From NCBI GenBank assembly GCA_003554535.1, contig PWGT01000034.1, forward strand, positions 1 to 9,835: a stretch of 9,835 bases of DNA, given 5' to 3'. Position 1 is the first letter of the stretch. Each line of letters opens with the position of its first letter. The notes beneath the pieces are model-generated. The model was not told where the DNA came from. It saw nothing but the letters and a program-made list of their open reading frames with translations, and did no database searches. The stretch comes from Syntrophomonadaceae bacterium. GTDB lineage: Bacteria; Bacillota_D; Dethiobacteria; DTU022; PWGO01. The position numbers were made by a program, and so were the translations under genes. Below are positions 3,042 through 6,260 of the stretch, piece by piece.

Positions 3042-3254
3042 ATGATCTCCAAATTTAAAACCCCTTCTGTTGCCATGCTGGTTGCAGCAGTTTCGCTGCT
3101 ATTAGTTGTTGGAATAGTAAGTTTAAGTGGGCCTATGTGGTCAGTGAAAACTCCACCCGAAGTTGTGGAAGAAGCATTTGAATTGATGCAAGAAGAACCT
3201 CAAAACCTCGAGGCTTTGAAGCCGTATTTGCTTGAGGAAACCCGTGGAAATTAA
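3042..3254 (+). CDS. Hypothetical 70-aa single-pass membrane or secreted protein
   Basis: Unrecognised. The N-terminus is MISKFKT, then a hydrophobic segment at about residues 8-29 (a signal anchor or uncleaved signal peptide), then an acidic, Glu-rich tail with many hydrophobic residues (EEAFELMQEEPQNLEALKPYLLEE) that probably forms an exposed helix. The start at ATG 3042 is fixed by AAAGGAG (3028-3034) seven bases upstream; an in-frame TTG at 3024 lies before that site and has no site of its own. It converges on the GNAT gene, with only 30 bp between the two stops. Confidence 0.55.
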   Translation: MISKFKTPSVAMLVAAVSLLLVVGIVSLSGPMWSVKTPPEVVEEAFELMQEEPQNLEALKPYLLEETRGN

Positions 3255-3284
3255 TTCGTTTTCAAGGTGTTGTAAATTTTTAAT

Positions 3285-3920
3285 TTAAATTTCTCTGTCG
3301 TAAATAAATACATCAAATGTAAATTCTCCGCTATGAAGATCAAAACTAACCGGCAAGCGTCCCTTAGGGGTGAATCCATTAAAATCATAAAAGCCGTAAT
3401 TACAGTTTTCATCGGTGTAAACATAAATATTTTTAACTGAATTCTGGCGGCAATAATCCAGGTAATTATTCAATAGTTGCTTACCTATCCCTTTCCCGCG
3501 GCATTTGCTGCTCACAACAAAAAAGACCAGCTCTCCATCGTATTCACTCTTTGTATTTTGGAGCAGTTTTGTATAAACTTTGATCAGGTTGAAAAAGCCT
3601 CGAACTAAGTTTCTCTCATGGCGTGATTTGAGCAGCAAACATGCACCATGAAACAATATGTAAGGGAGGTGAGTTAAATTTTTCAGTGGTATGCTTCTTC
3701 CGTCAACTCTACCATATAGAAATCCGACAACTTCCCCGTTTAGCTCTGCAACTTGGGTATAGTTTTGAGTTAATAAGGCCGTGTGCATGTTGGCATTAAG
3801 GATGTGTTTAACGCTATTTGGATTATTAGTGTATTTTTCAAAATGCCAGGCATCGTTTATAAGTACCTTCAAATCATTGTAATCATGTTTATTCACTTCT
3901 CTAAATAATATGTCGTTCAT
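3285..3920 (-). CDS. GNAT-family N-acetyltransferase
   Basis: A 211-aa protein with the GNAT fold: the acetyl-CoA binding motif A is LVFFVVSSKCRGKGIGKQLL (residues 131-150), with the R-G-K-G-I-G pyrophosphate loop at 141-146, followed by motif B YVYTDENCNYGFYDFNGF (about 166-183). The N-terminal part (residues 1-75) is the usual substrate-side half. An insert at about 76-125, rich in Leu, Phe and basic residues, makes it longer than the common 150-170-aa members. The substrate cannot be told; it transfers an acetyl group to an amine of a small molecule or protein. It starts one base after the MarR stop, with AGGAGGAG inside the end of marR, so the two are translationally linked. Confidence 0.85.
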   Translation of the reverse strand: MNDILFREVNKHDYNDLKVLINDAWHFEKYTNNPNSVKHILNANMHTALLTQNYTQVAELNGEVVGFLYGRVDGRSIPLKNLTHLPYILFHGACLLLKSRHERNLVRGFFNLIKVYTKLLQNTKSEYDGELVFFVVSSKCRGKGIGKQLLNNYLDYCRQNSVKNIYVYTDENCNYGFYDFNGFTPKGRLPVSFDLHSGEFTFDVFIYDREI

Positions 3921-3921
3921 T

Positions 3922-4365
3922 TTATATCTCCTCCTGTCTTTTTATTTCTTGGGTAGTGATGTTTAATATCTTTTCCAAAACCTGAATTTCTGTGGGACTT
4001 AACTGTTCCAGTATGCGCCAGCTTAGCTGGTTTAGATACTCATCGTCAATTTCGTAAAAATCAAGAAATTTGCTGGTTACTTTCAGATAATGCCTTCTCT
4101 TGTCTTTTTCATCAGGAATACTTTCCACGTATCCTTTTTCAATCAAGTTATTTATTCGGTAAGTCAGGTTGGGTTGTGAGATGTGCATAAAAGCAGACAA
4201 TTCAGAATAGGTTGGTTGTTGTAAGTGGTAAATTATCTCTAGCATTGAGATTTCCATGGCATTAAGGTTGGTAATTTCCTTATTGCTTTGAGTGAATAGT
4301 TTTTTATAGTACCTGATGAGTAAATGTGAATAAATCTCTTCCATTTTTTTGCGAAGATTTTGCAT
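3922..4365 (-). CDS. MarR-family transcriptional regulator
   Basis: A 147-aa protein of typical MarR length. The winged helix lies at about residues 36-97: TYSELSAFMHISQPNLTYRINNLIEKGYV (52-80) is helices 3-4 with the recognition helix, and ESIPDEKDKRRHYLKVT (81-97) is the wing with the family's D-x-R-D/R-x2-like element. The remaining N- and C-terminal helices form the dimer interface. The ribosome binding site is AAGGAG, eight bases before ATG. It is first in a two-gene operon with the acetyltransferase and lies directly behind its own promoter and a 36-bp palindrome, so autorepression relieved by a small ligand is the likely mode. Confidence 0.9.
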   Translation of the reverse strand: MQNLRKKMEEIYSHLLIRYYKKLFTQSNKEITNLNAMEISMLEIIYHLQQPTYSELSAFMHISQPNLTYRINNLIEKGYVESIPDEKDKRRHYLKVTSKFLDFYEIDDEYLNQLSWRILEQLSPTEIQVLEKILNITTQEIKRQEEI

Positions 4366-4377
4366 ATTAAGTGCTCC

Positions 4378-4413
4378 TTAGTTAAAAGATTTTAATTAAA
4401 ATTCTTTAACTAA
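4378..4413. promoter_or_regulatory. 36-bp palindrome, probable MarR operator
   Basis: Two 18-bp half-sites (4378-4395 and 4396-4413), each running TTAGTTAAA at the outside to a central TTTTAATTAAAA, match in 16 of 18 positions; only the two bases at positions 10-11 of each arm differ. The outer edge touches the -10 of the marR promoter and the site covers the likely transcription start. Length and symmetry fit one or two MarR dimers. Binding by the neighbouring MarR is inference. Confidence 0.65.
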
Positions 4414-4441
4414 TATTACACCATAATGATATGTTTGTCAA
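4413..4441 (-). promoter_or_regulatory. Sigma-A promoter of the marR-GNAT operon
   Basis: On the minus strand: -35 TTGACA (4441..4436, full consensus), 17-bp spacer, -10 TAATAT (4418..4413). It lies about 50 bp upstream of the marR start and overlaps the palindrome by one base. Confidence 0.8.
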
Positions 4442-4442
4442 A

Positions 4443-4472
4443 TGAAGTTTTTTTGCTGTGAAGTTTTTTTGC
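4443..4472. repeat. Tandem 14-bp direct repeat TGAAGTTTTTTTGC
   Basis: Two identical copies (4443-4456 and 4459-4472) at a 16-bp period, between the antiporter stop and the marR promoter. Because the A/T tracts are in phase at 16 bp rather than 10-11 bp, simple DNA bending is not clearly favoured. They sit just upstream of the marR -35, where an activator site or UP-like element could be. Confidence 0.4.
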
Positions 4473-4495
4473 CGAAATAATCTTTGCTTAATGTA

Positions 4496-6088
4496 TCAAT
4501 CGATTAAAATAACTGGAGTCGAAGAGTTATGAACCACATCTTCTGCTGTGTCCCCCATTAAAACTGTTGTATAGGCAGACTGGTTATGTTTCCCCATATA
4601 GATCTGGTTTACATCGTTTTTTTCTGCCTCTTCTACAATAAACTTTGCCGGGCTACCAGTTTCCACCTTTATTTTATAACTAATGTCCCGGGCCAGGGGG
4701 GCCACGATATTTTTCAATTCTTCTTTGCTGAAGGCAATTCTTCCCGATTGTTGCACATGTAGCACTACCAGGTGAGCATCCATCTGCCTTGCTGCTCTGA
4801 CTGCTTCTTGCAGGGCATTCTGGGAAGCTTCTGATCCGTCATAAGCAGCCAATAACACGTAATCATCCTGGATATTAACCTTGGTAGGATCCACTTTGCC
4901 TTTTTCAAGCAAGCGAGGGGCAAGAAAAACTGTTAAAAAGGCACCCAACGGGGCAGTGAGTATTATTGCCAATACTGAAATGGCCAGAATAATCTCTCCA
5001 TGAGGAACGCCCATAGCAAGAGGAATACCACCTATTGCAGCTTGCACAGTGGCTTTAGCCATATCTCCTCCCACCATAAAAACTCTTTCTCCAAGATTTA
5101 AAGAAGACCCCCAGGTAGAAGCAAAAATTCCTCCCCACCGGCCTATAAGAAGGCCGATAGCAATAATGGCCAATCCCTGAGGTCCCGCGTCTAAAATAAC
5201 CCCTACATCTACCGCAGCACCAATGAGCACGAATAAAAAGATTTCACCCGCGACCCATATCTTGTCTACTTCAACTCGCAGCCTGCGGGCTGTTACAGCA
5301 TCTTTTTCCAAAATGACAAAGCCTAAAACCATTACTGCCAGGAAGGCTGAAAAGGGAAGATAGTCATCCCCTATAATTAAGAGAAGCCCCAGACCCAGCG
5401 CTACAATTAGATCATGAATGTTGCTGCTAGTAAGATTACTGCGCCGGATCAAATATAAAGCCAAAAATCCAGCTGCTATCCCCAATCCAATTGCTAGGAT
5501 GACTTGAAGAGGAATATCCATGACCTGAAGTGCTACGGATGTTTCGCCTCCTCCAGCCCCATTCTCTACAATCCAGGCCAAAAAAACCCCAAACATAGTA
5601 ATTGCCGTAGCATCACTGGCAGTGCCCCCGGCTAAAATCAGATCGGGGATACCCTTTTTTACCCCCCATCCTTCACCTTTTAAGCGTAGCATTAGGGGCA
5701 CGATAACAGCAGGAGAAGCTGCACATACGATCCACCCCAGCAGGAAGCATATTAGCCATTCCCAACCAAAAATGAAGCGGGTAGCCACTGCTACTACTGA
5801 AGCTTCTATTACGGCGGGAAGGAAAGCGAGCCTAATGGCTACAGTCCCCTGAGAGATTATTTTGTTTTTATCCAGCCCCAGTCCTGCTTTGAATAAGATA
5901 AACAAAAGTGCTAACAAACGGATTTCTTCAGATATATTTAAGATATCATCCGGGAGAATATCCAAGTAATTAGGGCCCACTATAATTCCGGCTAAAAGCA
6001 TACCAATTAGTTTGGGCAACTTGACTCGACCAGCTAGTTCACCGGCCAAAAATCCTATCAAAAGAATAATCAAGATTCCTTCCAGCAT
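4496..6088 (-). CDS. CPA2/NHA-like cation:proton antiporter with C-terminal Usp domain
   Basis: A 530-aa protein. Residues 1-393 form about 12 transmembrane helices of the monovalent cation:proton antiporter fold. The conserved stretches CAASPAVIVP (122-131), LILAGGTASDATAIT (150-164) and MAKATVQAAIG (343-353) match the NHA/SLC9B-like branch, where homologues usually carry two adjacent acidic residues in the ion site; here the pair is Ser158-Asp159. Residues 408-530 are a universal stress protein domain (VLLAAYDGSE ... VLMGDTAEDVVHNSSTPVILI), with a weak nucleotide motif: G499-x2-N502-x9-G512-D513 instead of G-x2-G-x9-G-S/T. It would exchange protons for Na+ or K+, with the Usp domain as a cytoplasmic regulator. 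The leader holds a fluoride riboswitch. GGATGGTGG precedes the ATG. No strong terminator follows. Confidence 0.87.
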   Translation of the reverse strand: MLEGILIILLIGFLAGELAGRVKLPKLIGMLLAGIIVGPNYLDILPDDILNISEEIRLLALLFILFKAGLGLDKNKIISQGTVAIRLAFLPAVIEASVVAVATRFIFGWEWLICFLLGWIVCAASPAVIVPLMLRLKGEGWGVKKGIPDLILAGGTASDATAITMFGVFLAWIVENGAGGGETSVALQVMDIPLQVILAIGLGIAAGFLALYLIRRSNLTSSNIHDLIVALGLGLLLIIGDDYLPFSAFLAVMVLGFVILEKDAVTARRLRVEVDKIWVAGEIFLFVLIGAAVDVGVILDAGPQGLAIIAIGLLIGRWGGIFASTWGSSLNLGERVFMVGGDMAKATVQAAIGGIPLAMGVPHGEIILAISVLAIILTAPLGAFLTVFLAPRLLEKGKVDPTKVNIQDDYVLLAAYDGSEASQNALQEAVRAARQMDAHLVVLHVQQSGRIAFSKEELKNIVAPLARDISYKIKVETGSPAKFIVEEAEKNDVNQIYMGKHNQSAYTTVLMGDTAEDVVHNSSTPVILID

Positions 6089-6118: not shown

Positions 6119-6158
6119 AAAAAACTCCTGTCTTCCCTACTTAAAGGAAAAACAGGAG
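6119..6158 (-). terminator. Intrinsic terminator of the fluoride riboswitch expression platform
   Basis: On the minus strand: CTCCTGT (6158..6152), an inner TTCC/GGAA pairing, then ACAGGAG (6131..6125), followed by TTTTTT (6124..6119). The 5' arm CTCCTG is also the last conserved segment of the aptamer, so ligand binding and terminator formation are mutually exclusive, as in known fluoride switches of the terminator type. Confidence 0.85.
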
Positions 6159-6210
6159 CCATTAGCCGCTTTTTTAGCGGCACTTATCGGCGAGCTCCAT
6201 CGCCATATAA
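6152..6210 (-). ncRNA. Fluoride riboswitch (crcB motif RNA)
   Basis: Read on the minus strand, the RNA runs GGCGATGGAGCTCGCC (6204..6189), GATAAG, then a stem GCCGCT/AGCGGC closed by an A-rich loop, then TAATGGCTCCTG. These are the conserved parts of the crcB aptamer in order: the GGCGATGG-A-G-TCGCC hairpin, the ATAA linker, the second variable stem, and the CTAATG-CTCCT segment that forms the pseudoknot and long-range pairs. The terminator after it uses CTCCTG as its 5' arm. With fluoride and magnesium bound, termination should be blocked and the antiporter made. Recognised from memory of the consensus; a covariance-model search would settle it. Confidence 0.9.
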
Positions 6211-6230
6211 TCCCTATAAAATCCTATATT

Positions 6231-6260
6231 ATTTTATGCATGGATATAAAAAAAAGTCAA
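6231..6260 (-). promoter_or_regulatory. Promoter for the riboswitch-antiporter transcript
   Basis: On the minus strand: -35 TTGACT (6260..6255), 18-bp spacer, -10 TAAAAT (6236..6231). The start would be near 6224, a few bases before the riboswitch P1 region, as expected. Confidence 0.6.

Follow-up and report, generated by a model that had tools for sequence, protein, structure and literature searches.

Fluoride-riboswitch-controlled NHA-type antiporters, including a Usp-fused clade, seldom co-occur with the usual fluoride exporters

In the genomes compared, NHA-type antiporters encoded behind fluoride riboswitches seldom co-occur with the usual fluoride exporters, Fluc/CrcB and CLC-F, which suggests, from comparative sequence analysis, that these antiporters are able to substitute for the exporters. 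By this pattern, a protein assumed to be a helper becomes a candidate to replace them. The starting point is a 9,835-nucleotide stretch of DNA from a Syntrophomonadaceae bacterium (the window), in which a fluoride-sensing riboswitch with an overlapping terminator is confirmed, at the level of sequence, to precede an antiporter-Usp gene. The features concerned are as follows.

6231..6260, minus strand: sigma-70-like promoter, TTGACT-18-TAAAAT (pattern match, tentative)
6146..6213, minus strand: fluoride riboswitch aptamer, RF01734 (Rfam covariance-model match)
6123..6160, minus strand: intrinsic terminator forming the expression platform (16 pairs, then a T run)
4496..6088, minus strand: antiporter-Usp fusion gene, 530 aa (open reading frame and Pfam)
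4937..6067, minus strand: antiporter membrane domain PF00999, NHA/SLC9B-like (residues 8-384, 117.3 bits)
4502..4852, minus strand: C-terminal Usp domain PF00582 (residues 413-529, 75.9 bits against a cut-off of 24)

An earlier note on this DNA had proposed a fluoride riboswitch in the leader, with a terminator whose 5' arm is the last aptamer segment, and had suggested a covariance-model search. That search bore out the riboswitch: RF01734 matched at 6213-6146 on the minus strand with 47.4 bits (gathering score 34; E 7.6e-11) over model positions 1-64 of 64, and no other Rfam family matched in the window at E<=1. The terminator likewise lies where it had been placed (6160-6123, 16 pairs and a T run), its 5' arm overlapping the 3' segment of the aptamer, where GGCUCCU... 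starts the terminator stem. The 401-nt stretch searched holds two such sites, against 0.3 expected, and 34 nt separate the terminator end from the 530-aa gene. The leader (6215-6110, minus strand) folds at -43.2 kcal/mol (z -5.45, 0/200 shuffles as low); the plain fold of the 68-nt aptamer by itself is unexceptional (z -1.36, 20/200 shuffles as low). A GCUCC that is pairable with the aptamer loop is also part of the terminator's 5' arm; we assigned this pseudoknot by visual inspection of the Rfam alignment, guided by the known architecture of the riboswitch class. As for the promoter said to lie just upstream, a site is present, but its frequency is no better than chance (one match against 1.2 expected), so it is plausible and not evidence by itself. 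If the leader behaves like known members of its class, the terminator would form and transcription would stop when fluoride is absent; with fluoride bound, the aptamer pseudoknot would hold the 5' arm of the terminator and the gene would be read, making an ON switch. Terminators overlapping the crcB motif, and the prediction of an ON switch, appear in the accessible text of Weinberg 2010 (PMC2864571).

The gene product is an NHA-like antiporter fused to a Usp domain, as the earlier note had read it: both PF00999 and PF00582 match, and NHA2 (SLC9B) is the best profile match of the antiporter domain among solved structures (E 1.7e-64). PF02537 (Fluc/CrcB) was absent from this protein and from the other eight window ORFs scanned, PF00654 (CLC-F) was absent from this protein, and neither CrcB nor CLC-F was found among the nine scanned window ORFs. 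The Glu214-Arg431 salt bridge and Lys459 of bison NHA2 (residues as given in the accessible text of PMC8850199) are kept in the window protein as E95, R317 and K345. In contrast, the first Asp of the NHA2 DD motif is Ser and Trp456 is Asp. The additional N-terminal helix of NHA2 (14 TM) is absent: model residue 1 of the window protein already aligns to NHA2 residue 113-114, and a longer start would not fit behind the terminator at 6123. Of the two proteins, only that of the window carries a C-terminal Usp.

The Usp domain of the window reads G2xN9xGD, which departs from G2xG9xG(S/T), the motif that we take to mark ATP-binding Usp proteins, so its nucleotide motif is degenerate. The relatives L001, L003, L006, L008 and L010 are also without the canonical G2xG9xGS, which is kept in four cyanobacterial-type Usp domains (L014, L022, L039 and L057). 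Because the window Usp has lost a motif that the cyanobacterial-type members keep, nucleotide sensing is not general. The fusion is not peculiar to the window. Pfam found the antiporter and Usp domains together in all eight long relatives scanned, which come from spirochaetes, an archaeon, Bacillota, cyanobacteria and a methanotroph. Several close fused relatives (among L001-L010 and L022) bear names suggesting alkaline or salty habitats, such as Alkalispirochaeta alkalica, Haladaptatiplasma halalkaliphilum, Halanaerobiaceae and the T1Sed, B1Sed and CSSed sediment bins, the last of which we presume to be from an alkaline or salty habitat.

Other genes surround this unit. Upstream of the switch (9834-6318, minus strand), an AMP-binding ligase, a 4Fe-4S protein and an AcuR-like TetR regulator lie in a row. 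Some relatives of the 4Fe-4S protein are named RnfB, and among its best 120 relatives there are some named as Dethiobacter, Syntrophomonadaceae, Firmicutes and deltaproteobacterial MAGs, so an anaerobic member of the Bacillota may be the host. Below the antiporter (4365-3285, minus strand) are a MarR regulator and a GNAT acetyltransferase, with a promoter-like site, TTGACA-17-TAATAT, ahead of them at 4441-4413; no terminator-like site was found in 3200-4520. At 710-1501 on the plus strand is a YhfC-family intramembrane metalloprotease-like protein (PF10086, 36.8 bits).

A genome scan with the single protein as query found no relative, and an alignment-based scan found 569, of which the best 80 make up our homologue set. 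Of these 80 loci, 59 belong to a long clade, including the fragments L037 (301 aa, excluded from the tree) and L059 (424 aa), and 21 are short; the long loci were taken as fused from their length (525 aa or more) together with the Pfam scan of eight. In a membrane-domain tree of 80 rows, the window included, long and short forms part at one branch (SH-aLRT 100), with one state change. The window lacks the DD motif (NHA2 Asp277-Asp278) and reads S158-D159 there. S158 replaces the first Asp in 59/59 fused loci, while D158 stands in 21/21 short loci; D149, nine residues earlier, is found in 59/59 fused loci, and none of the 21 short loci has an acid at 149. D159 is retained in 56/59 fused and 20/21 short loci, and E95, R317 and K345 are each kept in 58/58 readable fused and 21/21 unfused loci. 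D149 was considered as a plain substitute for D158 and rejected: in the model both lie in one helix (147-178), and at nine residues, or about 13 A by helix rise, D149 could hardly occupy the place of D158. By analogy with ND antiporters, the SD site may mean electroneutral exchange, although NHA2 is itself reported as electroneutral with a DD motif (accessible text of PMC8850199).

The earlier note had also called for a survey of antiporter-Usp fusions for crcB leaders. We searched the whole genomes behind the homologue loci with RF01734 (38 + 41 genomes, 79 in all). L021 stands outside this set; the aptamer motif is present there by a crude pattern. A switch lay directly upstream of the antiporter and on its strand in 48 of the 79 genomes reached through the best-80 list, counting as linked L002 (32.9 bits) and L045 (31.9 bits), which fall just below the Rfam cut-off. 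Filters were stricter in the 41-genome search, and in the 299-genome search described below, so some switches may be missed in both. Linkage was computed from positions, with contig numbers unmatched by the script, and spot checks agreed. The survey thus found crcB leaders at 31/58 fused loci, compared with 17/21 unfused loci. Linkage was seen in 27/32 genomes outside the cyanobacteria and in 21/47 cyanobacteria, and in nine of the ten top-listed relatives (L001-L010, with L010 unlinked). The linked state changes at least 15 times on the protein tree; gains or losses of linkage have therefore been frequent. By record titles, from which all our phylum names for loci are taken, the homologue-bearing non-cyanobacteria comprise spirochaetes, Thermoplasmata, many Bacillota, Nitrospirae, Mollicutes, Lentisphaeria and Proteobacteria, and those with a linked antiporter include four records of spirochaetes (L001, L002, L003 and L009) and one titled Mollicutes (L072). 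One locus titled Nitrospirae (L069) has two equal-score fluoride riboswitches before its antiporter, at 3231 and 4859, on one strand and 1.6 kb apart; every ORF of at least 120 aa listed in the interval runs on the opposite strand, with a maximum length of 438 aa.

The pairing of a fluoride switch with an antiporter is not new; the Usp-fused, SD-site clade is a new variant of it. In the accessible text of a review (PMC11139923), Na+/H+ antiporters, for which Baker 2012 is cited, are the next most common target of fluoride switches after the exporters. The earlier note was therefore right to list antiporters among fluoride-switch regulons and to see an antiporter here in place of CrcB or CLC-F, although such a target is not in itself unusual. 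Its statement that Usp genes occur in such regulons also holds, for one uspA, in the accessible text on the FRM operon of Enterobacter cloacae (PMC5533749). That operon resembles the window in having a Usp under a fluoride riboswitch; it differs in that uspA stands as a gene of its own next to ppaC, eno, gpmA and crcB, whereas the Usp of the window is a domain of the antiporter. Strains with uspA, crcB or both deleted still grew on fluoride, according to the same text. In Clostridioides difficile, by its description in the accessible text of PMC11477304, a switch-CLC-NhaP operon likewise places an antiporter, of NhaP type, behind a fluoride switch, and differs from the window in that NhaP shares the operon with a CLC-type protein. 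The published fluoride riboswitches with antiporter targets are like that of the window in aptamer, overlapping terminator and kind of target; the Usp fusion distinguishes the target in the window. A literature search that left out subscription papers and preprints found neither a fluoride-switch antiporter-Usp fusion nor antiporter-CrcB avoidance, and the accessible text of the published accounts does not mention such avoidance. Fluc/CrcB and CLC-F belong to protein families unrelated to the window antiporter, and have in common with it riboswitch control and an apparently alternative occurrence.

The alternative occurrence was seen in three sets of genomes. Exporter calls for CLC-F relied on a signature that we take to be a GNN/GTN/GM-type first motif plus GREG or GRES followed by T, A or V. 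CLC-F-like proteins were called by motif from the alignment, with L160, L198, L236 and L153 read by eye, since the regular expression alone matched five loci. Among the 79 antiporter-reached genomes, CrcB was found in 10 (3/38 and 7/41), compared with 10/14 named control genomes, and CLC-F-like proteins in four, with fragment rows left out of the motif reading. Neither exporter was found in 65/79 of these genomes, nor in 37/48 of the linked ones. Linked antiporters occurred with CrcB in seven genomes, five cyanobacteria and two Anaerosolibacter (G014, G021, G022, G042, G046, G052 and G060), two of which (G021 and G022) have a second switch in front of CrcB. They occurred with CLC-F-like proteins in G011, G012, G036 and G057, and, in the phylum sample described below, in G178.

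The second set was an order-level sample of 31 genomes around G018, whose record is titled as an Alkaliphilus MAG. Switches were present in 13/31 genomes, and 11 of the 12 fetched switch loci precede an antiporter and one precedes CrcB (12/13 precede an antiporter with G018). CrcB was present in 9/31: in 0/12 genomes with a linked antiporter compared with 9/19 others (p 0.005, kinship ignored), a split made by linked antiporter, so that the 19 may include unlinked antiporters.

The third and largest set was a sample of 299 genomes from the phylum of G018, which includes G018 itself, chosen for its antiporter, and G033, also in the earlier set. One oddity is that G033 (L075) is titled Fusobacteria bacterium yet was drawn within this phylum, so either title or grouping is off, and we do not count it for the Fusobacteria. 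Counts in this sample are not corrected for kinship, and genome completeness is unstated. CrcB was found in 123 genomes, the antiporter in 24 and CLC-F-like proteins in 13. For CLC proteins, 51/299 genomes matched; motifs were read for 30 loci, giving the 13 CLC-F-like calls (two of which, L269 and L271, have an in-frame stop), and lower-scoring matches beyond these loci were taken as not CLC-F. CrcB occurred in 0/24 antiporter genomes compared with 123/275 without the antiporter (Fisher 3e-6, kinship ignored), and CrcB or a CLC-F-like protein in 2/24 (G114 and G178) compared with 134/275 (7e-5, kinship ignored). Antiporter and CLC-F alone did not avoid each other in this sample (2/24 v 11/275, p 0.28). 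CLC-F and CrcB did (0/13 v 123/286, p 0.001, kinship ignored), and the accessible text of the review also reports their mutual avoidance (PMC11139923).

Switches (E<=0.001) were present in 119/299 genomes of this sample, 102 of them over the cut-off. Of these 119 genomes, 69 had CrcB only, 20 the antiporter only, six a CLC-F-like protein only and one both the antiporter and CLC-F; 23 had none of the three. Those 23, which include G110, G118, G137, G141 and G144, comprise some weak matches below the cut-off, and other genes may follow their switches. A switch over the cut-off lay 41-211 nt upstream of 20/24 antiporters, the exceptions being G114, G317, G321 and G383. Any exporter at all was found in only 136/299 genomes, compared with more than 85% of GEBA strains in the accessible text of the review (PMC11139923), so exporters may be missed here.

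Our preferred reading, held with moderate confidence, is that the fluoride-induced NHA-type antiporter does the exporters' job, probably by H+/cation exchange. With confidence just as evenly balanced, we read the antiporter as the main fluoride-defence transporter of many lineages, replacing Fluc/CrcB or CLC-F, and not as a helper. HF would enter the cell and split, and F- would be held inside by the pH difference; from simple chemistry, HF should equilibrate across the membrane, so that cytoplasmic F- rises with that difference. An antiporter bringing H+ in against Na+ or K+ would lower the pH difference, and F- would leave as HF. Such an H+/cation route would replace an exporter without moving F-. 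Exchange in the opposite direction, with H+ moving out as in the review's pH-helper reading, would by itself favour more F- inside. The Usp domain, at a guess, would be a regulatory part of the antiporter.

The strongest competing account, which we think doubtful but far from negligible, is that the antiporter serves only to restore pH and Na+/K+ balance during fluoride stress, the main work falling to exporters, known or unrecognised. This is how the accessible text of the review treats riboswitch-controlled Na+/H+ antiporters, as pH helpers (PMC11139923), and the C. difficile switch-CLC-NhaP operon (PMC11477304, accessible text) agrees with it. Two of our own loci do too: in G014 (L016) CrcB, and in G057 (L036) CLC-F, directly follows the antiporter behind one switch, and these arrangements indicate that the antiporter can act alongside an exporter as well. 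A helper, however, ought to be found together with exporters, and this is contrary to the 37/48 linked genomes in which no known exporter was found and to the absence of CrcB from all 24 antiporter genomes of the phylum sample.

It is rather unlikely, in our estimate, that the avoidance of CrcB reflects shared ancestry only, with no functional link. The counts were made without a species tree, and exporter-poor cyanobacteria are without exporters whether or not they have the switch (23/26 unlinked and 13/21 linked genomes), both of which favour that account. Against it, the pattern recurs within the sample of a single order (0/12 v 9/19) and in genomes titled to many phyla.

That the protein itself exports F- (as F-/H+ or F-/cation exchange), with the SD site as a step towards anion handling, seems improbable: the avoidance of CrcB, S158 and D149 in 59/59 fused loci and the retained R317 and K345 would fit, whereas the unfused clade with the classical DD (D158 in 21/21) is linked as often or more (17/21), which shows that association with the switch does not require the SD site, and structure and paper searches, which were not designed to exclude one, found no anion-transporting member of the fold. 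The SD site was also rejected as the cause of CrcB avoidance, because the phylum-sample antiporters, which by ORF length belong to the short form, avoid CrcB too.

More tentatively than the replacement reading itself, we suggest that fluoride-riboswitch NHA-type antiporters could form a third stand-alone class of prokaryotic fluoride-defence transporters, acting through F- transport or through the pH difference, with the Usp-fused SD clade as a specialised branch. This third class would, and here we are similarly reserved, replace Fluc and CLC-F in lineages thought to be without a fluoride exporter; the accessible text of the review names Tenericutes, Spirochetes and Fusobacteria as such groups (PMC11139923). 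If the antiporter does replace the exporters, some lineages listed as exporter-less do have a fluoride defence, and that defence may work by a different principle. The S158/D149 change in the Usp-fused clade singles out residues for testing.
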